A stretch of 40,440 nucleotides of DNA, taken from assembly GCA_024276955.1 (NCBI GenBank), contig JAJRWE010000209.1:1-40440 (forward strand), read 5' to 3'. Below, piece by piece: positions 1,756 through 18,872 of this stretch; the first letter of the stretch is position 1, and the number at the start of each line of letters is the position of its first letter. The translations under genes were made by a program, and so were the position numbers. The notes under the pieces were generated by a model that saw nothing but the letters and a program-made list of their open reading frames with translations, was not told the origin of the DNA and did not search any database. Origin of the DNA: Gammaproteobacteria bacterium. Lineage in GTDB: Bacteria > Pseudomonadota > Gammaproteobacteria > SZUA-152.

Positions 1756-3072
1756 TCAGATCCAGGATAATGCACCGACAAACACCACCACTATCCCCAG
1801 TAACAAAAACAGGGTGACGGCATAGGCCCAGCGCTGTAAAAAACGCTCGCTGCCGTCCAGCGTTCTTTGCCAGATACGGATCCGCCGCAGACAACGGTCC
1901 ACGTTGGCCAGCCATGCGGCACGCAATCGGGGCAAGGTGTCGGTTCCCATCTGCGCAGCCCAGCGCGTAACGGCAACAGACCAGCGTTCAAACCACGGGC
2001 TCGAATCGTCGGCCTGCTTCTCGGGTAGAGCGGAATACTGACACCTCGCCTGCAGCCACCCGTTGGCGGCAACCAGTATCGCCACCCCAAACCCTAGCGA
2101 AACAATAAGGAAACAGGCCAAATTCCCCTGCCGGTTCCATACCTCGGGATCGCTCAGCCCCATCCCCAAGACAGTGGTGAATAATCCCGTGATGAAGATG
2201 GCCGCATAAGCGGGCAACCGTGTTAGCGACGCCCGCTTTGCCCCCGCCAGAATGGCGTAAAGCATGGCAGCCACGCCCATAGCCTGGATGACCAGGCCCA
2301 ACGCAGGCAGGCTGACTTCACCCAGGGGCAACCAGCGCACAAGCCCAAGCAGTGCGATGGCAACGGGAACGGCCCCCAGCAGCAAGGCCACTGCCGGCCG
2401 GGATGAACGGAAGGCCGGCAGCAGCCAGACGTGTAACGGCCAAACGCCGGCCTTGAGGGCAAAGCCGGCAAGCACCATCGACAGATACAGACCGGGAGAG
2501 GCTGACTGGGCCATTGCCTGGCGCACGCTCTCAAAGCCCAGATCCTTGGCCGTTGCAGCCGCGATCAACAAGGCCTCGAACAGCGCCAGATCAGCCAGGA
2601 TCAGGAACACCAGATAGACACGCGCCGCCCGCCGCGCCCCTTCGTCTCCCCCTGCAACCAGCAGTGCATAAAATCCGTAACCCATCAGAACTGAAAAGGT
2701 GAAAAAGCCCACCAGATCCGTCGCCAGAATCGCACCCAGATTACCCGCCAGGGTCAGCAGAAAACAGGTCGTCAGACGGTCATCCGCAGGCTGGCCTTTG
2801 GCGGTATGTAACAGGCTCGCGGCAAGCGCCCAGATCAGCACTGACATCGCCAGCAACAAACGGCCCGCCCCGTCATCAATACCCAGCCCGGTACCCAGCA
2901 ACAGCCAGGGCAGGTCTATCGAAACACCCGGCGGGACAGTCAATAGGATGAGCGCCGGCAAGAGGGCGATGTGACAAGGCCGGGGGAGGCGCGAGCGCAG
3001 TGCGGGAAATGCCAGCAATAGCGGTAACAGCGGCGCCAGGATTAGCAACAATGCACTCAAAACGGTGTTCAC
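1756..3072 (-). CDS. MrpD/NuoM-like membrane subunit, degenerate proton channel
   Basis: This is a polytopic membrane protein of about 438 residues in the proton-conducting transporter family (NuoL/M/N, MrpA/D). It is the third such protein at the end of the Mrp block. I chose the GTG start at 3072 because it overlaps the stop of the upstream gene as GTGA; an upstream extension to 3108 is also open. The TM7 lysine is kept (LKAGVWPLHVWL). Aligned with the preceding paralogue, the TM5 glutamate is replaced by valine (FTFSVLMGYG against VLFYELLTLA), and the TM8 lysine by alanine (AVPVAIALLGLVRW against AVVKAGAFGIVRV). A long hydrophilic C-terminal stretch precedes a last membrane segment (VTLFLLLGIVVVFVGAL). 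It probably has a structural or altered-transport role in the antiporter complex; that is inference. Confidence 0.85.
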   Translation of the reverse strand: MNTVLSALLLILAPLLPLLLAFPALRSRLPRPCHIALLPALILLTVPPGVSIDLPWLLLGTGLGIDDGAGRLLLAMSVLIWALAASLLHTAKGQPADDRLTTCFLLTLAGNLGAILATDLVGFFTFSVLMGYGFYALLVAGGDEGARRAARVYLVFLILADLALFEALLIAAATAKDLGFESVRQAMAQSASPGLYLSMVLAGFALKAGVWPLHVWLLPAFRSSRPAVALLLGAVPVAIALLGLVRWLPLGEVSLPALGLVIQAMGVAAMLYAILAGAKRASLTRLPAYAAIFITGLFTTVLGMGLSDPEVWNRQGNLACFLIVSLGFGVAILVAANGWLQARCQYSALPEKQADDSSPWFERWSVAVTRWAAQMGTDTLPRLRAAWLANVDRCLRRIRIWQRTLDGSERFLQRWAYAVTLFLLLGIVVVFVGALSWI

Positions 3073-4565
3073 GGTGCGTATTCCAGCCGGGTGATAAAAC
3101 GCGCCCATTGCAGCAGGCCGAACGGCGCGGACGCCAGCAGCCCAAGGGCCAGGGTCAGGAAGGCCGTCACCAGCGGCGGCGCCAATAACGCCCAGGCGGT
3201 CTCACGCCGCCCGAAAGAGCGCTCGGCGGGCCAGGTACCGGCAGGCGCCTTGAACCAGGCCGCATACAGAATCGGCAGGAAATACGCCGCATTGAGCAAA
3301 CTGCTGCCGGCCAGGATAAAAATCACCCAGCCCTGTCCGACATCCAGCGCCCCCAACCCCAGATACCACTTACTGATAAAACCGGCCAAGGGTGGGACAC
3401 CAATCATGCCAAAGACGCCGACCGTAAAGGCCGTCATGGTCCAGGGCATGCGCCGTCCGACCCCGTTCATTTCGCTGACTTTGTGAATCCCCAAGGTCTC
3501 GGCAAGGTTTCCGGCGCAGAAAAACAGGGTAATCTTCATCACGCCCTGATGCACCAGATGCACCAGGCCGCCGACGGCCGCGATCGGACCGGCAATAGCG
3601 ATGCCGAGTACGATATAGGCGACCTGGCTGACCGTGGAGAAGGCCAGCCGGCGCTTCAGGTCATCCTGGAACAGGGCCCGCATCGAACCATAAATAATGG
3701 TCGCCGCTGCCACGATTGCCAGTGGCAAGGTTACTCCCAGACTGGCGGAGAACTGCATACCATAGACATCGTAGACGACACGCACAATGCCGAAGGCGCC
3801 CGCCTTTACCACGGCCACCGCATGCAGCAATGCGCTCACGGGTGCGGGCGCCACCATGGCCTGTGGCAGCCAGCCATGCAACGGAATCAGTGCGGCCTTC
3901 ACGCCCAGGCCTGCGACCAGGAGTACAAAGATGACGACCAGGGACCAATGGTGTGTTGCGTCCAGGCCGGATAAAAAACCGCGTGCGGTGAACTCCAGGG
4001 TGCCGCTAAGGGTATACAGCCATACTGTGCCGACCAGCAGCAAGGTGCCGCCTGCAATGGTATAGACCAGGTAGGTTCGGCCGGCGCGGCGCGCCTCGTC
4101 GGTACCACGGTGCACGATCAGCGGATAGGTGGCCAGGGTCAGCAGCTCGTAAAACAGCACAAAGGTAATCAGGTTGCCGGCCAACGCCACACCGACCGTT
4201 GCGGTCACACAGAGGCTGAAAAATCCGAAAAAGCGGCTACGATTGGGCGAGCCTTCCAGATAGCCGACGGCATAAACGGTTGTCACCAGCCACAGGATGC
4301 TGGAAAGCACGACGAACAGCATCGACAGGGAATCGGCCCGCAGCAGCAAATCCAACCCCGGCAACAGGGGCAGCCGGGTCTCGTAATGGGCGCCGTGAAA
4401 AACACCCCAGATCATCACCCCGACCAGCATCAGTTTGAGTACCGCACCCGCCAGGTTCAGGGTGGTCCGGGTGGCAACACGTTCCTCTGTCAGGAAGAAA
4501 ATCACCAGTCCCGGTAACAGGGAGCTGGCGAGAACGAGCAGTGGCAGCGCGGCATCCCAGTTCAT
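3069..4565 (-). CDS. Mrp-type Na+/H+ antiporter subunit D-like (NuoM-like), second copy
   Basis: This protein of 498 residues, with about 14 membrane segments, belongs to the NuoM/MrpD family and conducts protons or cations as part of a multisubunit antiporter. The frame stays open well upstream, but that part reads as non-membrane sequence. The ATG at 4565 (MNWDAALPLLVL) begins directly with a membrane segment and has GGAG upstream, so I take it as the start. All three expected charges are present: the TM5 glutamate (LFYELLTLATYPL), the TM7 lysine (GVKAALIPLHGWLP) and the TM8 lysine (AVVKAGAFGIVRV). It lies 97 bases after mrpD and overlaps the next gene by four bases. It may stand in for the NuoL-like half of MrpA, which has no dedicated gene here. 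Confidence 0.9.
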   Translation of the reverse strand: MNWDAALPLLVLASSLLPGLVIFFLTEERVATRTTLNLAGAVLKLMLVGVMIWGVFHGAHYETRLPLLPGLDLLLRADSLSMLFVVLSSILWLVTTVYAVGYLEGSPNRSRFFGFFSLCVTATVGVALAGNLITFVLFYELLTLATYPLIVHRGTDEARRAGRTYLVYTIAGGTLLLVGTVWLYTLSGTLEFTARGFLSGLDATHHWSLVVIFVLLVAGLGVKAALIPLHGWLPQAMVAPAPVSALLHAVAVVKAGAFGIVRVVYDVYGMQFSASLGVTLPLAIVAAATIIYGSMRALFQDDLKRRLAFSTVSQVAYIVLGIAIAGPIAAVGGLVHLVHQGVMKITLFFCAGNLAETLGIHKVSEMNGVGRRMPWTMTAFTVGVFGMIGVPPLAGFISKWYLGLGALDVGQGWVIFILAGSSLLNAAYFLPILYAAWFKAPAGTWPAERSFGRRETAWALLAPPLVTAFLTLALGLLASAPFGLLQWARFITRLEYAP

Positions 4566-4662
4566 CACGCCTGCGCTCCATGCGCCCGCGAACTGACGCA
4601 CAGGGATGTGCAAATGCCGTGCTGGCAGGGATGCCAATGAGCGGCGAGTGCATCCATGCACG

Positions 4663-6114
4663 TCATCCGGCATTCTCCCTGTTGAAGGGTGAACCGATTT
4701 CCAGTAATGCCAGCAGCCAGGGGGCAAACAGGCCCAACAGGATGGCGAGCACGGCCATGAGCAGTGCCGTCCATTCCATGGTGGCGGGTACCGCTCTGGC
4801 TTCGTGGGGCGCTTCAGATCGGGTAAAGGCATAACCAACCACTTTGAAGACCCAGGCGGCGGACAGCAGTCCACCGAGGATCAGGACGCCCCCCCACCAC
4901 CACTGACCGGAACGAATGGCAGCCTCCAGCAACAGCCATTTGGCGATAAATCCGCCGCTGGGTGGCAGGCCCATGATGCTGATACCCGCCAAGGCAAAGG
5001 CGGTCATCGTCAGGGGCATGCGCTGCACGGCGCGATCAAGATCCGCAATGCGGTCATGGCCACCGAAATACAGGGTGTTGCCGGCCGCCATGAACATGGC
5101 CGTCTTGGCCGCGGCATGGGATAGCAGCATATACAGCGCGCCCGTCCAGCCGGTGATGCTCGCCAGCGGAAAGGCCAGAAACAGGTAACCCAGTTGCGCC
5201 ACGGTCGAATAGGCGATGAGCATTTTGAGCCGCGTCTGGCGCAATGCCTGGAACCCGCCCCAGAACACAGCGGCCGCACCGAGCAGGCCCAGCAGTTGAG
5301 CCAGGGCGGCGTTGGCAAACGGAAAGATCTCCAGCCACAGACGCAACAGAATATAAAACGATGCCTTCACCACCAGTGCCGACAACAGCGCACTCACTGG
5401 CGCCGGGGCGCTGGCATGGGCCGATGGTAACCAGAAATGCAGTGGAAACAGCGCGGTCTTAAGCAGCAAACCGGCGATCATCAGGCCCATCGCTGCCCAC
5501 ACGGCGGGGGACGGCTCCACCCGCTCTGCCAATATGGCGATATCGACACTGCCAAAACTGTGATAGAGCAGCGCGACGCCCAGTAGATAAAACAACGAAC
5601 CCAGCAGACTGACCAGCAGGTAACGCATGGCCCCGCTCACGGCATCCGCACCCCCGGCCAATGCGACCAGCACCACCGCCGCCAGCCCCAGCAGTTCCAG
5701 GGTGACATAAAGATTGAAGATATCTGCGGACAAAAACAGGGCATTCAGCGCCGTCCACAGAAACATCCACACGGGCCAAAAATGCCTCGCCCTGTCTTGA
5801 CCATAACGGGCGCGCTCAAAATAGCCGCTGGAATAGACGCTGATGCCCAGTCCCACCACCGCCGTCACCGTCAGCATCAGCAGGCTCAAGCCATCAGCAT
5901 AGAGGTCAATACCCAGTGGCGCGCCCCAACCACCCACCGCGTAGCGTTGCGCGCCCTGCTCCACCACCTGCCAACCCAGTCCGGCCACGCAAGCGACGAC
6001 GCCCAGCGCAGTGAGCAGACCCAGCAGGACGCTGCGCCGCGGCCATAAAAAACAGGCCACGCCCCCGGCCAGTGGCAGCAAAATGACGATCACCGGCCAA
6101 TGGATATCGGACAT
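4663..6114 (-). CDS. mrpD: Mrp-type Na+/H+ antiporter subunit D
   Basis: This inner-membrane protein of 483 residues belongs to the NuoL/M/N proton-channel family and is a core ion-translocating subunit of the Mrp antiporter. The catalytic charges are seen in order: the TM5 glutamate (LYVTLELLGLAAV), the TM7 lysine (LLKTALFPLHFWLPSAH) and the TM8 lysine (LVVKASFYILLRLWL). The HAAAKTAMFM stretch in the second half is also typical of the family. The ATG at 6114 is preferred over the adjacent in-frame TTG. The gene follows mrpC by 18 bases. Its position after mrpC is the canonical order in Mrp operons. Confidence 0.93.
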   Translation of the reverse strand: MSDIHWPVIVILLPLAGGVACFLWPRRSVLLGLLTALGVVACVAGLGWQVVEQGAQRYAVGGWGAPLGIDLYADGLSLLMLTVTAVVGLGISVYSSGYFERARYGQDRARHFWPVWMFLWTALNALFLSADIFNLYVTLELLGLAAVVLVALAGGADAVSGAMRYLLVSLLGSLFYLLGVALLYHSFGSVDIAILAERVEPSPAVWAAMGLMIAGLLLKTALFPLHFWLPSAHASAPAPVSALLSALVVKASFYILLRLWLEIFPFANAALAQLLGLLGAAAVFWGGFQALRQTRLKMLIAYSTVAQLGYLFLAFPLASITGWTGALYMLLSHAAAKTAMFMAAGNTLYFGGHDRIADLDRAVQRMPLTMTAFALAGISIMGLPPSGGFIAKWLLLEAAIRSGQWWWGGVLILGGLLSAAWVFKVVGYAFTRSEAPHEARAVPATMEWTALLMAVLAILLGLFAPWLLALLEIGSPFNRENAG

Positions 6115-6132
6115 CAACCTGAGCCCCGGCGG

Positions 6133-11851: not shown

Positions 11852-12934
11852 GTGCCCAAACCCTTGCGCATATCGCCTATTGCCCTGGATCCAACCAATC
11901 GCAAGGTACTCAAGGTTGCCGTTGACCTTATCAACGATGATGGCATTGTCAGCCTGCTGCTGCCCGACAACAGTCCCCACGGCCACCTGTTGGTCATCGA
12001 TGCCGACAACGACATCGGCCAGCAGGTGCTGGAAGAGTCGCGCGACGGACAAGTAAAACTCGTGCTCAGTGAGGAGCGCCGAGAAGGCAAAAACCTCATC
12101 TGGCAGGAACCCCCGGTACGAGTCACCGACATGCAGGAACTGTTGACTCGCATCTGCCTGCGCATGAAGGCTACCTTTGCCACCCAGGAGGCGATAAGCG
12201 AGCCATCGGACAATAGCAAATCCGCTGCAGCACCGACGAGTACAGAAAACGGCGAAACCGCAAGCACACAAGCCACCGAAGCCGCGACAGAAACTCCCCC
12301 GGCAAGCACCTCCGTCATCGAAGATACACAAGAGCCGGCAGCACCGAGTAAAAACCTGTTCCACATCCTGCTGAGTGCGCGACAACAAAAGGCCTGCTAC
12401 CAGATCAGATTCGACAACACCTGGCTGCTGATTGGTGGGCACAACGGCACCGTGGCAAGCAAAGACGAAGCCGATGCCAAGATCATCATGACCGCCCCCT
12501 TCAAGAAGCTGTACATCGAACAAATCGATATCGTCGCCTTCGCCAAGAATGCCCAGGCGATGAGCATCTCCACCCTGGACAGCCTGCTCTGGCAGGCCGG
12601 CGTCGACTATTCCGATGGCCGGTTACTGGAGGGCCACGACATGGCCCAGCCGGTACGGCTCAAGGCCTGGCCCAACTTCACCCGCAATGGCTTTCGCCAG
12701 TCACATTTCAAACTGGCCGCCATCATGGCGCGCCAACCCATCAGCCTGAAAGAATTGCGCAAAGAAGCCGGCGTCGCCCGGGATGAAGTCGTCAGTTTTT
12801 ACAACGCAGCCTATGCCGTCGGACTCATCGACCGAACTGCCACAACCTCTGATTCAGGCCTGCAATACGGCAAGCCCCGCACACGGCGCAAGGGCCTGCT
12901 CAGCATGCTGGCCCGCAAGCTGGGCTTTCGTTAA
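11852..12934 (+). CDS. Multidomain protein of the roadblock/GTPase cassette, with C-terminal winged-helix-like domain
   Basis: I do not recognise a named family for this 360-residue soluble protein. Residues 1-110 form a compact alpha/beta domain (LLVIDADNDIGQQVLEES), followed by a Ser/Thr/Ala/Pro-rich linker at about 113-165. A second domain at about 166-265 begins KNLFHILLSARQQKACYQI. The last part contains QPISLKELRKEAGVARDEVV followed by FYNAAYAVGLIDR, which reads as a helix-turn-helix or winged-helix unit like that of CvnC/DUF742 or DUF4388-type proteins. The end is basic (RRKGLLSMLARKLGFR). The start is GTG at 11852 with AGGA upstream. It is the first gene of a four-gene set with a GTPase and two roadblock proteins, so it may be an adaptor or effector of the switch. 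Confidence 0.85.
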   Translation: MPKPLRISPIALDPTNRKVLKVAVDLINDDGIVSLLLPDNSPHGHLLVIDADNDIGQQVLEESRDGQVKLVLSEERREGKNLIWQEPPVRVTDMQELLTRICLRMKATFATQEAISEPSDNSKSAAAPTSTENGETASTQATEAATETPPASTSVIEDTQEPAAPSKNLFHILLSARQQKACYQIRFDNTWLLIGGHNGTVASKDEADAKIIMTAPFKKLYIEQIDIVAFAKNAQAMSISTLDSLLWQAGVDYSDGRLLEGHDMAQPVRLKAWPNFTRNGFRQSHFKLAAIMARQPISLKELRKEAGVARDEVVSFYNAAYAVGLIDRTATTSDSGLQYGKPRTRRKGLLSMLARKLGFR

Positions 12935-12975
12935 CCCGCCTTCTCAAGCATGTATTTCCAAGGACGTCCCAAATA

Positions 12976-13506
12976 ATGTTTCAGGCCACAGATAAAATCA
13001 TCTTCACTGGCCCCGTCGGCGCCGGCAAGACCAGCGCCATCAGCGCCATCAGTGACGAACCCCCGGTACGCACCGACGTCGCCACCACCGGCAGCGAGCG
13101 CAACATCAAGAACACCACGACTGTCGCCATGGATTACAGCTATATTCAGTTGGAGGACGGCAAGCGTATCCACCTCTACGGCACACCGGGTCAGGAACGC
13201 TTCGACTTCATGTGGCAGATCCTGACCCAGGGCGGACTGGGCCTGGTGCTGCTGGTGAACAACGACCACCCGGATCCCGTAGCACAGATGGAATACTATC
13301 TGGACGCCTTTGGTGACTTCATCCGCGACACCGGCGTGGTGATCGGCGTGACGCGCATGGGCATACAGGACAATGCCAGCATCACGGATTACCAGACCCG
13401 GCTGTATGAACGCGAGCAGATCTTCCCCGTCTTCGAAGTGGATGGACGCTGTTCCGATGATGTGCGAATCCTGGTCAACGCCCTGCTGGCCGTATTGGAG
13501 AACTGA
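12976..13506 (+). CDS. MglA-like small GTPase
   Basis: This 176-residue single-domain G protein is of the bacterial MglA/SRPRB-like group. The Walker A loop GPVGAGKTS spans residues 12-20. Switch I threonines lie at about 47-49 (NIKNTTTVAMDY). Switch II reads YGTPGQERFDFMW (68-80), where the GTPGQ form replaces the eukaryotic DTAGQ, as is usual for this group. The G4 position reads VTRMG (125-129), where the family usually ends in aspartate, so guanine specificity may be altered. It presumably cycles between GTP and GDP under control of the adjacent roadblock protein, which in MglAB acts as the GAP. The ATG at 12976 is 41 bases after the first gene, and three bases separate the stop from the next start. 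Confidence 0.92.
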   Translation: MFQATDKIIFTGPVGAGKTSAISAISDEPPVRTDVATTGSERNIKNTTTVAMDYSYIQLEDGKRIHLYGTPGQERFDFMWQILTQGGLGLVLLVNNDHPDPVAQMEYYLDAFGDFIRDTGVVIGVTRMGIQDNASITDYQTRLYEREQIFPVFEVDGRCSDDVRILVNALLAVLEN

Positions 13507-13509
13507 GAC

Positions 13510-13959
13510 ATGACTTTCATCAGCGACATGGTCGACAAGGTCAGTGAAGAAGGCAGCAAGCACGAAGACACCGTCTCCAGCGACATCCGCCATACGCTCA
13601 GTGCGACGCTTTGCGAGATGCTGGATGATTGCGGCGACATGCTCGGCGCCATGGTCAGCGCCAACGACGGCCGCGCCCTCGCGGAGCGTCTGCAGAGCGG
13701 GCTGGACAAACACCGTTTCGCCGCCATGAGCAGCGCCCTGCTGGCCCTCAGCGACAACGTCATCCGCGAGACCAACGGCGGCAGCATCAAGAATGTGCTG
13801 ATCCAGAGCGATGACGGTAATGTCTTCATCCTGCACGCCGGCAACGGCCTGCTGTTAACGGTGTTTTCCCAGCCCGATGCCAATCTCGGCATGTCGCTGG
13901 CACATGCCAGCAAGGGTGCTGCGGATATCGCCGCGTTGAATTTGCGCATGGACTTCTAA
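13510..13959 (+). CDS. Roadblock/LC7 domain protein (MglB-like), first copy
   Basis: This cytoplasmic protein of 149 residues has an N-terminal extension of about 25 charged residues and then a roadblock/LC7 fold (LCEMLDDCGDMLGAMVSAND followed by GRALAERL). Further family elements are the AAMSSALLALSDNVI helix, the IKNVLIQSDDGNVFILHAG strand pair and LLLTVFSQPDANLGMSLA. Roadblock proteins dimerise and act as regulators of their partner GTPase; in MglB this is GAP activity. It directly follows the GTPase with a three-base gap, which is the expected arrangement for an interacting pair. Confidence 0.92.
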   Translation: MTFISDMVDKVSEEGSKHEDTVSSDIRHTLSATLCEMLDDCGDMLGAMVSANDGRALAERLQSGLDKHRFAAMSSALLALSDNVIRETNGGSIKNVLIQSDDGNVFILHAGNGLLLTVFSQPDANLGMSLAHASKGAADIAALNLRMDF

Positions 13960-14002
13960 CGTAAATAACACCTCCCCTCTTACCTCCAGACAACATCTAC
14001 GC

Positions 14003-14030
14003 TAAAGTTCCTGCCGAGACGACCCGAAAG
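14003..14030 (+). promoter_or_regulatory. Possible sigma-28 (FliA)-type promoter
   Basis: In the 124-base gap before the second roadblock gene, TAAAGTTC (14003-14010) matches seven of eight bases of the FliA -35 consensus TAAAGTTT. CCCGAAAG (14023-14030) matches five of eight bases of the -10 consensus GCCGATAA. The spacer is 12 instead of the preferred 11. Transcription would start about 45 bases upstream of the ATG. This is a pattern match only. Confidence 0.35.
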
Positions 14031-14083
14031 GTAGACAAGCTGTTCAATACGCTTGCAAAAAACAATCATGAGGAGAAATAAAA

Positions 14084-14491
14084 ATGGCTGGAATTAATGA
14101 CGTTTGCCGAGAGATCGTCGACAACGTGGAAGACGCACTGGGCGCCGCTGTCGTGGATCTGAGCACCGGCCTGATGCTCGGTGCCCACCACAACGTCCCC
14201 TACTTCACTTCTAGTTATATGGATGCTGTGTCAGCAGCGGCGGTGGACATGTTCCGCGGCAAGGGCATCACCAATGTGGAAAAACGCCTTGCCCAGACGC
14301 GTGGCGAAGAAGTCCGCAACAGCATGCTGGAAATCCAGATGACCACGCCCAAGACCTTTCACTTCATGGTGGTAGTGCCGGGCAAACCCAATGCACTGGC
14401 GATCCTGATCACCGGCCGCCGCGCCAACCTGGGCATGGGCTGGGCCGGACTGCGCAGTGCGCTGCCGAAGATCGAGCCCATGTGTCCCTGA
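14084..14491 (+). CDS. Roadblock/LC7 domain protein, second copy
   Basis: This 135-residue protein is a single roadblock domain: an N-terminal helix (INDVCREIVDNVEDALGAAV), then VDLSTGLMLGAHHN, a central helix (SYMDAVSAAAVDMFRGKGI), then FHFMVVVPGKPNALAILITG and RRANLGMGWAGLRSALPKI. It is clearly diverged from the first copy and lacks its N-terminal extension. The start ATG at 14084 has a strong ribosome-binding site (GAGGAG at about 14070). It lies 124 bases after the first roadblock gene and so may also have its own promoter. Two different roadblock proteins could form homo- or heterodimers that bind the same GTPase (inference). Confidence 0.9.
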   Translation: MAGINDVCREIVDNVEDALGAAVVDLSTGLMLGAHHNVPYFTSSYMDAVSAAAVDMFRGKGITNVEKRLAQTRGEEVRNSMLEIQMTTPKTFHFMVVVPGKPNALAILITGRRANLGMGWAGLRSALPKIEPMCP

Positions 14492-14792: not shown

Positions 14793-15356
14793 TTATTGCC
14801 CGCGCCGCAGGCGATCCGCCATTTCCGATGGAAACTGGTGTTTACTCATGTCGGCCAGCGTCTTTTCCATGTTATAGGACAGACGATGGTATTCCAGCTC
14901 ACGTGAAGCCAGGTCGATGATCGCCAGCTCCACACCCGCGTCGCCACCACGCGGCTGACCGATGGAGCCAGGGCTGATCAACACATGCGCCGCCTCCGCC
15001 AGCTGCTGCCGCTTACTGCTGTCACCGGCATCGCCATCACCATCACGCCGCCAGGTTTTCTGGATATGCGAGTGGCCATGAAAACACAGCGGTACCTGCC
15101 GCTCACTCAGCTCATCAAGATTCTCAACATAACTCATCTGATAGACATAACCGTTAAAGAAAGTCTTGTCCAAGGGCGAACCATGCACCGCCAGCCACTG
15201 ATCACCCTGCTGGTAAACCGGTAGCTGTGCCAGCCACTGGCGCTCATCATCGCTGAGCTGGTCAATGGTCCATTTCAGCGACCACGAGGCCAGCGAGGTG
15301 ATGCCGCCGCGTATCTCACCACAGGCCACCGCGTGATCATGATTGCCACGCACCAT
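14793..15356 (-). pseudogene. C-terminal part of the metallophosphatase split by an in-frame TAG
   Basis: This frame continues that of 15366-16325 after one TAG codon. It carries the second half of a calcineurin-like phosphatase: VRGNHDHAV (the GNHD metal and phosphate motif), VHGSP and FHGHSHIQ (the GHxH metal motif). It ends with SIGQPRGGDAG, which is typical of small protein-phosphatase-like enzymes of the YfcE/PrpE kind. On its own it lacks the first two metal motifs and cannot be active. Re-initiation at ATG 15356 just behind the stop is possible but would give only a fragment. It is most simply a recent nonsense mutation or a sequencing error; the intact gene would be 14793-16325. Confidence 0.85.
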
Positions 15357-15365
15357 GCTCCAGCC

Positions 15366-16325
15366 CTACAATGCCTGCACCATCTCCACGCACTGCTGCG
15401 GATGCGGGCCATAGCCCACCACATCACCCAGCATGATGCCGTGATCGATCCCGCGCCCCGCCAGATATTCCAGGGCACATTCCAGGGCCGGTGCATTGCC
15501 ATGAATATCGCCAATCAACGCCATCACACTGCCATTATTTTTTGGCTTCGGTGCCTGATAACTAAATGTCTGATCACCATACAGGGCCTGAATCAGCGCC
15601 TTTGCCACGGCCTGCCGCTGCGGTGGAATGAACACCCCGCGCAAACCCTCGGCGACGACGGTTATCACATGCGTATCGGAAAAATGCTGGCGGAGGCTCT
15701 GCGACAGCATCTTGCCCAACGCCGCGGCCAACGCTTCATCCAGCCACTCCAGTGCACGTACCCAGGTGCCCAGTGCATCACTGAGCATGGTGAGACTGCT
15801 GCCGGGATAAAAATCATCATCCAGATAGAACAGATGATCATCAGCATCCACACCAAAGTTCGATAGGCACAGATCGAGGCTCAACTCGTCCTTCGCCAGC
15901 ACTGCCAGATAGTCATCCAGCATCTGCGCCATGAAACCGATCTGCGATGACGGGGAGTAGCGCTCATTCAGTTCGTCATATTTATTCAGCGCCAGCAGGC
16001 GTGGCGTGATATTGCCGATTACGACCGTGTCGTCGCCACCGGCAGGTGTCCACAGAAACCACGTCTTATCAGGATGGTGTACGCCCAGCAGGCGCTCCCG
16101 TTTGATGGCCTGCTCGACGAAACGCCGTGCCGCCGATGCCGGCAGCTGGTATTCGGTGCGCAACTTGAGCATGTCGCTACCCGTATCGATGAGTGCCGTG
16201 ACCGGGCGGCCTGTCAATGCCTCACCAGGCCCCGCCATCACCTGCTGTCGATGACAGGCGGCGAGAATCGACTCACTGTCGTAAGGCGAATCAGCCAGGG
16301 GGGAAATCAACTCTACGTGAGACAC
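15366..16325 (-). CDS. Kinase-like domain fused to the first half of a metallophosphatase (interrupted gene)
   Basis: The frame codes for about 319 residues from a GTG at 16325 that has AGAGG upstream. Residues 1-250 resemble a compact protein-kinase or APH-like fold: MLKLRTEY (possible beta-3 lysine, residue 54), a charged helix (RRFVEQAIKRERLL), a hinge-like VVIGNITPRL, then DLCLSNF (151-157) as a D-x-x-x-x-N catalytic loop and FYLDDDFY (166-173) as a DFG-like element. This assignment is inference. From about residue 258 a calcineurin-like phosphatase starts: GDIHGN and GDVVGYGP give two metal motifs. The frame then stops at a TAG (15366-15368), and the remaining motifs lie downstream in the same frame. 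The gene is downstream of, and on the same strand as, the 527-residue protein at 16384-17967. Confidence 0.75.
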   Translation of the reverse strand: MSHVELISPLADSPYDSESILAACHRQQVMAGPGEALTGRPVTALIDTGSDMLKLRTEYQLPASAARRFVEQAIKRERLLGVHHPDKTWFLWTPAGGDDTVVIGNITPRLLALNKYDELNERYSPSSQIGFMAQMLDDYLAVLAKDELSLDLCLSNFGVDADDHLFYLDDDFYPGSSLTMLSDALGTWVRALEWLDEALAAALGKMLSQSLRQHFSDTHVITVVAEGLRGVFIPPQRQAVAKALIQALYGDQTFSYQAPKPKNNGSVMALIGDIHGNAPALECALEYLAGRGIDHGIMLGDVVGYGPHPQQCVEMVQAL

Positions 16326-16383: not shown

Positions 16384-17967
16384 TTATACCTGCACTCTGA
16401 ACCGATACTGCACAAAAACCTCGGCCTCGCGCACCACCGAGGCCGTCACTACCTCAAAGGCCTGACCCTTCACCCGCACATACAGCGAGTCCTGTCTGGC
16501 CCGCCGCGGCAACAGTAGCGAGGCGGAACGCCCCTCTGCGTTATTCTTGGGGAAATAGAAACCCAGCTCCGGCGCCTGATCCAGATCCTGCGCCGTGCTG
16601 CCAAACAGGATGGGCTGCGCCACATCCTCGATAATCTCCACACCCAGTTTGCTGCGTCCCTCACTGATCTCACCCTGCCAGCGCACGATACCTATAGACA
16701 GGTTCTGTTGACCCATCTCCGGCAGGAAGCCCACCACGCCCAGTAATGAACCGACCATCGGTGTCTCATCAGCGGCACTCACACGCCCTAACAGCAGGCA
16801 ACCGGTATCGCTCTGATCCAGCATTTGCCAGTCACCCAGCTGATAGCGCACCTCATCTTCACTATCCAGGCTCAGCACCTCGATACCGCCGTACACTTCG
16901 GTACTGCAGGCCTGCGTCAAATGCCCGGGATCGGAGAGAAAATATTCCAACGCCTTCAGGCCCAGCGCCACCTTGACGAAGCGCCGCGCCACAGAGCGCG
17001 GCCCTTTGCGCCCCCAATGGGAACCCAGCAGGCCCGTCAGCATCCTCGCGGGCCGAACATCCTGGTTCTGCATGGCGCCATCTTCCACCCTGTGCTGCGC
17101 CAGCCACGCCTCGACGGCATCACGGACCGGCAGAATATCCAGTGTCCGGGGCTTCATCCAGTCACGCTCCGCCGCCTGCCCCACCGTGAGTGCCTGCGGT
17201 GGTCTATCCGCCATCAGGTCAATAACAAAACACCCGGGGCGCGTCTCATCCGGCACCTCCTGGCTGATGTCGCAGAGCGAGGAATACTCTTCCAGCAACA
17301 GAAACAATTCCATCAACTCAGCGCCCGTCAGTTGCCGGGTATCCATCACCGCCATCAGCAGCGCCTGGGTATAAACACGCTCAACGGTCGGCACAACCGA
17401 CTCGTGCCGCGCCACCTTCACCCGCTTCTGCAGGGCATCATGCTTCTCACAAAAGGCGTACAGCTGGTGCAATTCCACCCAGGCCGGCTCCGGTGTCGGC
17501 CGGTCCACCCGGCGTGCATACAGCACGGCCAAGCCAATCAGCTCCATGGCGCGATAAATCGCCTGCAGCAGAAAACCATCCCGCGCCGGGTCATCACTCT
17601 CATCGAAGCCATTGCGCACCAGAATCTTATAGCCGTTGGCCAGCTCCAGGTAGAGCCCCATGATATCGTCAGCAAGCTGCTGCCGCTCGCGCGCCGGCAG
17701 TGACAGCACCTTGAGGCGCTGTTCGTCATAGATCAGGAATACCTCTTCCAGCCCCTGCCGGTAGACCTCCAGCAGTTTAAGGCGCTCGACGTCGGGCAGG
17801 GGCAGCTCATTAAAGGGAGAAATCGCCGCGTGCAGACGCCGCACCGTCTCCACTGCATCCATGATGGGCAGTTCGACCAGCCATTGTTTCAGACGGCCGG
17901 CATTGCGTTCTACTGCCGGGTTGTCGGCCGCGTGCTGCGGCGGTGTTGTTAACAGGAGGAAGTCCAC
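16384..17967 (-). CDS. Large soluble protein with possible C-terminal PilZ-like c-di-GMP-binding domain
   Basis: This 527-residue protein has no signal peptide. Residues 1-300 are strongly helical (WLVELPIMDAVETVRRLHAA, LLEVYRQGLEEVFLIYDEQR) and resemble the N-terminal region of large c-di-GMP-related or chaperone-annotated proteins of Gammaproteobacteria. In the C-terminal half, RKGPR (an RxxxR pattern) occurs about 70 residues before DQSDTG (D-x-S-x-x-G). These two patterns are the ligand-binding signatures of PilZ domains, although the spacing is longer than usual. A beta-rich end follows. The start is GTG at 17967 with GGAAAGGG upstream. The gene is followed by the kinase-like/phosphatase gene on the same strand, and the pair may form an operon. 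Function unknown. Confidence 0.8.
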   Translation of the reverse strand: MDFLLLTTPPQHAADNPAVERNAGRLKQWLVELPIMDAVETVRRLHAAISPFNELPLPDVERLKLLEVYRQGLEEVFLIYDEQRLKVLSLPARERQQLADDIMGLYLELANGYKILVRNGFDESDDPARDGFLLQAIYRAMELIGLAVLYARRVDRPTPEPAWVELHQLYAFCEKHDALQKRVKVARHESVVPTVERVYTQALLMAVMDTRQLTGAELMELFLLLEEYSSLCDISQEVPDETRPGCFVIDLMADRPPQALTVGQAAERDWMKPRTLDILPVRDAVEAWLAQHRVEDGAMQNQDVRPARMLTGLLGSHWGRKGPRSVARRFVKVALGLKALEYFLSDPGHLTQACSTEVYGGIEVLSLDSEDEVRYQLGDWQMLDQSDTGCLLLGRVSAADETPMVGSLLGVVGFLPEMGQQNLSIGIVRWQGEISEGRSKLGVEIIEDVAQPILFGSTAQDLDQAPELGFYFPKNNAEGRSASLLLPRRARQDSLYVRVKGQAFEVVTASVVREAEVFVQYRFRVQV

Positions 17968-18012: not shown

Positions 18013-18872
18013 GCCTGGCTACCACTTATTAGCATCGGCCTGAGGGGGCTGAACTTAACGCTGGACAGGGTTTAGCGCCACTGCCGCTTTCATTTTCCAT
18101 TTCAGCGATTATCCTGGGTTATGGTTAAGAAACATACAAATGGCCGGAGTTCAGCATCCTGCTGGTACAGGATGTCATCGCCATCATTGTGCTGCTGCTG
18201 TTGCAGGCCACCGACAGCGGTGACCTGCCCGTTGGCAACCTGTTGCTGCTCGCCGCCAGCCTGCCGACCATCTTCGGCCTGTCCTATGCGCTGGCGCGTT
18301 TCGTGCTGATGCCGCTCATTGCCCGCTTCGACCAGATTCAGGAATATATCTTTCTGATGGCCATCGGCTGGTGTCTGGGGATCTCAGAGCTGGCCGCCGG
18401 CCTCGGCCTGTCGCACGAAATCGGCGCCTTCATCGCCGGCGTGGCGCTGGCAACCCATCCGATCTCGCTGTTCATCAGCGAACGCCTGAAACCCCTGCGT
18501 GATTTCTTCCTGATCCTGTTCTTCTTTTCCATCGGCGCCGGCTTCGATATCCGCATGCTGGGGGAGATTGTCGTTCCCGCCCTGCTGCTATCGGCGCTGA
18601 TTCTGCTCGGCAAGCCGCTGCTGTTCCGTTTTCTGCTGCGGCGCAGCGGGGAAAGCTCCGGACGGGCCTCGGAGGTCGGTGTACGCCTGGGACAGATCAG
18701 CGAGTTTTCGCTGCTGATCGCGGTGCTGGCCTTGCAGCAGGCGGTGATTGGTGAGCAGGCGTCCTACCTGATTCAGCTCAGCACCCTGATCACCTTCATG
18801 GTGTCGTCGTATGTGATCGTGCGGCGCTACCCGACGCCAATCGCCGTCTCGGACAGGCTGCGGCGCAACTAA
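18013..18872 (+). pseudogene. Decayed CPA2 (Kef-type) antiporter gene
   Basis: The intact part, from about 18141, codes for the C-terminal two thirds of a cation/proton antiporter domain: FSILLVQDVIAII, LGLSHEIGAFIAGVAL, RDFFLILFFFSIGAGFD and RLGQISEFSLLIAVLAL are all family hallmarks. It ends without a Rossmann (RCK) domain. Upstream remnants survive in two frames: WLPLISIGLRGLNLTLDRV from about 18013, then after a frameshift LAPLPLSFSISAIILGYG, which ends in a TAA at 18126. The section between that remnant and the FSILL segment has been deleted. No start with a ribosome-binding site is visible. It is a different gene from the intact antiporter at 9618-11291. Confidence 0.85.

Follow-up and report, generated by a model that had tools for sequence, protein, structure and literature searches.

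A gene from a gammaproteobacterial contig encodes, we conclude with high confidence, a kinase-like domain and a metallophosphoesterase domain in one polypeptide, and what is new here is that this fusion gene belongs to an MglA/Roadblock locus that matches the Group 3 MglA systems. The balance of evidence tips slightly toward a role for its product as a bifunctional phospho-switch on that MglA/Roadblock module. The whole stretch of DNA that was analyzed, 40,440 nucleotides in length, is called the window, and on its numbering the parts of the gene are as follows:

14793..16325, minus strand: whole fusion gene, 511 codons in a single frame that one TAG interrupts (from translation and open homologous frames)
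15540..16325, minus strand: protein-kinase-like N-terminal domain, residues 1-262 (from alignment, AlphaFold2 and fold search)
16164..16166, minus strand: K54, predicted beta-3 lysine (invariant in 74 of 74 domains; strand 51-62 of the model)
16095..16097, minus strand: E77, predicted helix-C glutamate (invariant in 74 of 74 domains; helix 63-80 of the model)
15858..15875, minus strand: D151-L-C-L-S-N156, putative catalytic-loop motif (D151 and N156 invariant)
15813..15821, minus strand: D169-D170-D171, putative metal-binding motif at the DFG position (D169 and D170 invariant; D171 is D, E or Q)
14793..15539, minus strand: metallophosphoesterase domain, including the internal stop (PF00149 and PF12850; homologue model compared with 3rqz)
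15366..15368, minus strand: in-frame TAG inside the phosphoesterase domain; frames of six of six genus-mates are open through this position

The minus-strand open reading frame (ORF) that runs from 16325 to 15366 has a GTG start and encodes 319 amino acids before the TAG, past which the same frame runs on to 14793 without a further stop. By Pfam, the ORF before the TAG contains just the beginning of a calcineurin-like phosphoesterase (PF00149, residues 269-318) and the ORF after it contains the remainder of this domain (PF12850), so the two ORFs are one gene. The interval 15366-16325 is therefore only part of that gene, with the phosphoesterase continuing to 14793. The preliminary description had proposed a single polypeptide with opposing activities. 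This proposal holds for the presence of a kinase-like domain and a metallophosphoesterase in one frame, but the window copy itself is cut by the TAG.

With the TAG placed after GDVVGYGPHP and ahead of GNHD, two motifs of the phosphoesterase, the window product would miss most of the metal site. Such a truncation fits the reading that the window copy is a mere pseudogene, locally without functional interest, which is compatible with either view of the family and which we consider doubtful. Against it, the frame is open for 511 codons on both sides of the TAG, and the codon differences between the window and five genus-mates are mostly silent before and after the TAG alike. Relative to one of these mates (L002), for example, there are 63 silent and 14 amino-acid-changing codons before the TAG, and 51 and 14, respectively, after it. 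Amino acid changes private to the window number two before and two after the TAG, which is not above the count for most mates. Furthermore, a gene comparison with four mates showed no other long true frame with a stop inside. Given the dominance of silent changes and this sole interruption, the TAG is best explained as recent, polymorphic or erroneous, and the window copy thus reflects a loss that happened very recently, a polymorphism of the strain or a mistake in the assembly. Recoding of TAG was considered and set aside, as no second long true frame in the window contains a stop among the genus-mate genes compared. A second family copy whose matched stretch contains one TAG was also encountered (G579:C36:1208-1942).

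Outside the window, the fusion is nearly strict. Matches were found in 19 of 144 related genomes, and 13 of these cover the N-terminal domain (window included) while six cover only the phosphoesterase start. Species genomes scanned with the N-terminal domain alignment yielded 105 relatives; 80 were kept, and one frame spans both domains in 78 of these 80 named loci. The two exceptions are a locus that ends with its contig (L088) and one in which the phosphoesterase lies in another frame after a masked stretch (L071). Most relatives are Gammaproteobacteria (Chromatiales, Thiotrichales, Methylococcales, Marinobacterium, Solimonas), and others occur in Mariprofundus-like bacteria, in Nitrospira metagenome-assembled genomes (MAGs) and in one Phycisphaerales MAG. 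When 369 genomes of the class were searched by profile, 15 matched, with 14 strong matches whose frames are at least 505 amino acids long in all but the window's own; the remaining match (G262, E 1.1e-4 over 40 residues) is weak and stands outside the count of 14. In 299 genomes of the phylum there were 32 matches, 29 of them from one family (f200) outside the class. The frames around the family members in L113 and L107 reach 839 and 679 amino acids, which might indicate extra parts or merely frames that are open upstream.

The preliminary description had also proposed a minimal kinase or APH fold ahead of the phosphatase, based on an LK at residue 54, a charged helix, D151-x4-N156 and an LDDD at 168-171. 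These positions are correct (the first is L53-K54, and E77 lies in the charged helix), and the Lys/Asp/Asn/Asp set, whose presence in homologues had been named beforehand as a point to check, is invariant in 74 of 74 aligned domains. These domains are 24-95% identical to that of the window, with a mean column identity of 32%, and their invariant columns are K54, E77, W89, L150, D151, L154, S155, N156, Y167, D169 and D170. By sequence, this corresponds to the kinase lysine, helix-C glutamate, catalytic aspartate, asparagine and metal aspartate, plus a few other residues. The alignment (A3) was made without 16 of the 80 named loci (12 that repeat unnamed loci and four that are incomplete) and without three of 12 unnamed loci. 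In an alignment of 81 rows, K54 is present in 80 of 80 with one gap, and E77, D151, N156, D169 and D170 are present in 81 of 81.

Care must be taken in reading part of this conservation. Because the patterns used to scan for relatives were LD[LE][CGS]LSNF[GA] and [HY]HP[HDA]K[TS]WF, the invariance of the D151-N156 and HHPxKTWF stretches is partly biased. K54, E77, D169 and D170 lie in neither pattern. Profile searches recovered three relatives (L107, L112 and L113) that fit neither pattern and yet keep K54, E77, D151, N156, D169 and D170, with L154 or S155 changed in two of them. Of the glycine-rich GxGxxG loop, G39 is conserved, G34 mostly so, and the rest varies; this is the lowest-confidence part of the N-lobe model.

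Structure prediction and fold search, which had been suggested as checks on the early proposal, returned a kinase-like fold rather than an unrelated one. AlphaFold2 modeled the window domain with pLDDT 91.1 and pTM 0.85, in the order strand, strand (K54), helix (E77), strand, strand, hinge, helices 116-146 and catalytic loop D151-N156, after which come short strands, D169 and four helices. This is a two-lobed arrangement, and all of the fold matches listed have a kinase fold. Foldseek gave 228 matches in the PDB at E<=0.001, and the 50 that are listed are all kinases, although their TM-scores are low (0.30-0.36 of the query). With VIA-align, the best 50 entries are all kinases or kinase-fold phosphotransferases, including CDKL1 (Z 10.4, rmsd 4.2 over 141 residues) and PRPK/Bud32 (Z 10.4, rmsd 5.3 over 198 residues); a Z near 10 is only moderately over background, and gaps of less than two Z units decide little. 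Judged from the model, the fold of the N-terminal domain is very likely kinase-like.

Searches of the N-terminal domain against Pfam, NCBIfam and PDB sequence models gave chance-level matches only. The best of these were DUF3781 (E 0.0012, in one member), TPR_10 (E 0.0027) and SCO6745 (4.4e-4), and the latter two, in the window protein, fall far below their cut-offs. Local hhalign comparisons with APH, Pkinase and Kdo/WaaP gave probabilities of 0.1-0.4%, without significance, under conditions in which these three families detect one another at 94.8-96.4%. The family alignments used for this purpose excluded loci with two open strands and were built from 23 of 30 loci for APH, from 15 of 30 for Pkinase (nine short, partial or edge matches and six ambiguous loci removed) and from 13 of 30 for Kdo (two ambiguous and 15 others removed). 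In the best alignment to Pkinase, which is not significant, D151 and N156 fall on the Asp and Asn of HRDIKPAN, and D169 falls on the Asp of DFG. A Hanks-type Ser/Thr kinase (PF00069) was rejected, with no Pfam match, an hhalign probability of 0.1%, and LD and LDDD where HRD and DFG would be expected. Membership in APH (PF01636) or Kdo/WaaP (PF06293) was likewise rejected, with no profile match and hhalign probabilities of 0.1% and 0.4%, and YrbL (PF10707) was set aside as a relative because matches in only two of 36 genomes are too few for a profile. The domain thus belongs to no named kinase family. Because no sequence model matches and profile comparison fails, it represents a deeply divergent, unnamed one.

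Profile, metal-site motifs and fold all place the C-terminal domain among the calcineurin-like metallophosphoesterases. Its metal-site residues (D273, H275, D301, N328, H329, H381, H418 and H420) do not vary across 73 of 73 full-length homologues. The motifs in homologues run as GD or AD and [IV]H, with GD[IV]VGYG and GNHD after them. A model of a whole intact homologue (pLDDT 93.2) has a C-terminal half that superimposes on 3rqz with Z 31.7 and rmsd 1.9 over 228 residues; the same half matches SapH with Z 26.4, PP5 with Z 18.4 and the Pnkp phosphatase (4j6o) with Z 17.3. PPP protein phosphatases carry the signature GDxHG, GDxVDRG and GNHE. A PPP enzyme was rejected for this domain, which is close in fold to PP5 but lacks GDxVDRG. 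Thus, the early description of the domain as protein-phosphatase-like stands as far as the phosphatase-type fold is concerned, and the domain is otherwise of the SapH/3rqz type.

The genes in the neighborhood of the fusion gene are these:

11852..12934, plus strand: conserved 360-amino-acid protein with a receiver-like N-terminal part and a winged-helix-like C-terminal part (by analogy with PMC4316618)
12976..13506, plus strand: small Ras-like GTPase of the MglA type (G-T-P-G-Q and D-x-R motifs)
13510..13959, plus strand: RB1, a Roadblock/LC7 protein, MglB-like (PF03259, E 2.4e-12)
14084..14491, plus strand: RB2, a putative Roadblock/MglB-type protein, very conserved, convergent neighbor of the fusion gene (no Pfam match)
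16384..17967, minus strand: 527-amino-acid upstream neighbor with a possible PilZ C-terminal domain (from the match of a homologue to PF07238)

The plus-strand genes from 11852 to 14491 converge on the fusion gene. According to the Group 3 text of Wuichet and Sogaard-Andersen (PMC4316618), such MglA systems occur in beta/gamma-Proteobacteria, and their gene set comprises a receiver-like/winged-helix protein, one or two MglB proteins, and an MglA whose motifs are GTPGQ and, as G5, an unusual D-A-R; the receiver/winged-helix assignment given there rests on fold prediction. The window copy of the receiver-like protein has no Pfam match and no significant PDB match. In Snodgrassella, a Group 3 locus has been tied to type IV pilus-dependent motility via an orphan mglB (PMC11112851). 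By its GTPGQ and D-x-R motifs, two MglB proteins and side-by-side gene order, the window locus is, on sequence grounds, a match to this gene set. In the GTPases, residues G69-T70-P71-G72-Q73, D156 and R158 are invariant across 29 sequences. Because RB2 has no Pfam match, its name is drawn from its place in the locus and from weak cross-matches to MglB-like genes. Its mean column identity is 64% (31 sequences), compared with 45% for the GTPase and 32% for the fusion N-terminal domain. RB2 is conserved across very distant bacteria, yet lacks a Pfam match.

Both linkage and co-occurrence connect the fusion gene to this module. In 55 of 80 loci, the distance from the fusion gene to RB2 is at most 1.5 kb (this holds for 43 of the 61 where both flanks are present), and in 46 of 80 an MglA is no farther away than 3.5 kb. 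When near, RB2 is upstream on the same strand in 33 loci and downstream and convergent in 22, and these two arrangements therefore favor function over inherited gene order. Among the 369 genomes, all 14 with a strong fusion match also have RB2 (E<1e-50) and MglA (E<=1e-10). Conversely, RB2 at E<1e-50 is present in 17 genomes, 14 of which carry the fusion, and MglA is present in 66; one of the three RB2 genomes without the fusion is 72% complete. Six genomes whose only Roadblock matches were weak ones (E about 1e-16 to 1e-19) were not scored as RB2. The co-occurrence of fusion and RB2 has a Fisher p of 9e-23, uncorrected for relatedness, and the 14 fusion genomes come from 10 families. Because fusion and RB2 lie on separate contigs in three genomes (G055, G199 and G305), the association is independent of adjacency. 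Tandem RB2-like pairs, with the fusion on another contig, were seen at G199:C157 4207-5058 and G305:C6 47724-48675 (L120, L138, L117, L139).

The preliminary description had instead pointed to a possible PilZ protein next door. This gene does adjoin the fusion gene, but in only nine of 80 loci, which are a few close relatives, whereas the widely conserved neighbors are MglA and Roadblock. Among its homologues, L029 gives E 4.8e-4 against PF07238 and narrowly misses the curated cut-off, two others are unmatched, and Pfam gave no PilZ match for the window copy. The possible PilZ gene is a local rather than a general partner.

Given these findings, a mechanism can be proposed. The N-terminal half would be a phosphotransferase of the protein-kinase-like (PKL) kind, highly divergent, with K54/E77 and N156/D169 for binding ATP-Mg and D151 as its catalytic base, and the C-terminal half would be a binuclear-metal phosphoesterase. 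Both heads are presumed to be active on a common substrate from the Mgl module, with RB2, the GTPase and the receiver-like/winged-helix protein as candidates, such that phosphate could be added and removed and the state of the GTPase thereby tied to ATP or to a signal. A wider version, offered tentatively and at somewhat less than even chances, is that a kinase family permanently fused to an opposing phosphatase gives MglA signaling reversible phosphorylation in gamma- and probably also in zetaproteobacteria; RB2 would then be its likely target or adaptor. The many loci without adjacent Mgl genes (RB2 is near in the 43 of 61 noted above) count against an Mgl phospho-switch.

The substrate could also be a small molecule. 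In this alternative, which we regard as improbable, the N-terminal domain is a kinase resembling APH or sugar/lipid kinases, the phosphoesterase removes the phosphate or cleaves an Ap4A-like product, and the Mgl module reads the resulting metabolite or alarmone. From D169 to the helix at 179, the AlphaFold2 model shows nothing that is evidently an activation segment, and APH and Bud32 likewise lack one. APH(3')-IIIa (Z 8.7, rmsd 6.2 over 195 residues), N-acetylhexosamine 1-phosphate kinase (Z 8.6, rmsd 5.0 over 215 residues) and amicoumacin kinase are among the VIA-align entries listed at Z 8.6-8.7. However, the protein kinase PRPK/Bud32 scores as high or higher, although such small differences in Z carry little weight. 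The structural neighbors of the phosphoesterase (3rqz, archaeal homologues and SapH) are closer than the PPP phosphatases, so a small-molecule or nucleotide substrate is conceivable, the latter also because the closest characterized relative is an Ap4A hydrolase/phosphodiesterase (by the title of 3qfm). Against a metabolic role, the strict co-occurrence is with Roadblock/MglA signaling genes, and no metabolic pathway recurs among the neighbors.

Least probable, in our estimation, is that the kinase-like domain is an ATP sensor, a pseudokinase or the seat of some other chemistry that regulates the phosphoesterase, leaving dephosphorylation as the sole hydrolytic output: kinase-fold proteins with other chemistry are described (SidJ), and the invariant W89 and conserved HHPxKTWF stretch would suit such a role, but all catalytic residues are invariant, the base D151 and the two metal positions among them. 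To our knowledge, W89 and HHPxKTWF are not standard kinase features, and pseudokinases usually lose some catalytic residues.

The favored reading of a phospho-switch on the Mgl module has partial precedents. Enzymes that add and remove phosphate with one polypeptide are established (AceK, HprK/P, PFK-2/FBPase-2 and bacterial Pnkp). Pnkp also uses a metallophosphoesterase phosphatase (4j6o), and its kinase is a P-loop kinase; we know of none of the four that pairs a PKL domain with a metallophosphoesterase. PRPK/Bud32, the best full-domain structural match among the entries listed, has in common with the N-terminal domain a compact kinase-like fold, but there is no detectable sequence relation and the matched chains carry no fused phosphoesterase. 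SapH/3rqz-type enzymes have in common the whole C-terminal domain, its metal-site residues and its fold, but their chains of 239-258 residues stand alone, whereas here, in the loci examined, the phosphoesterase sits behind a kinase-like domain. The actinobacterial conservons (cvn) are described as combining a GTPase, a Roadblock protein and a kinase in one conserved locus, as here, but their kinase is a sensor histidine kinase and no phosphoesterase is included. The Group 3 systems share their gene set with the window locus; the Group 3 section of PMC4316618 contains no kinase-like or phosphoesterase component, and the fusion is an extra gene in a subset. No description of a PKL-metallophosphoesterase fusion, or of either part in an Mgl locus, was found in the literature searched, a scope that leaves out subscription papers and most preprints and makes this weak as evidence of absence.

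The same Group 3 text describes no upstream kinase or phosphatase for these Ras-like GTPases. As a near-constant companion of one Roadblock type, the fusion gene offers a concrete candidate for such a kinase/phosphatase, and it would add a kinase-like family that is invisible to present profile libraries. If the proposal is true, a bacterial Ras-like GTPase/Roadblock switch would have a built-in layer of phospho-control. Family members are present in the culturable Marinobacterium stanieri and Methylovulum miyakonense (L066, L069), which makes the question directly testable.

Several other observations concern the window more generally. PADLOC gave no match and no sign of a defense system for the six proteins submitted, and a plasmid comparison gave no match. 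A Na+/H+ exchanger-like ORF at 18189-18872 (plus strand) lacks about the first 150 residues found in three genus-mates and has less than 200 bases of room before the divergent neighbor, which might reflect a deletion or an assembly lesion. Unrelated to the fusion, the window starts inside a valyl-tRNA synthetase-like gene, and a Proton_antipo_M cluster of the NADH dehydrogenase/Mrp antiporter type occupies 1756-6117.
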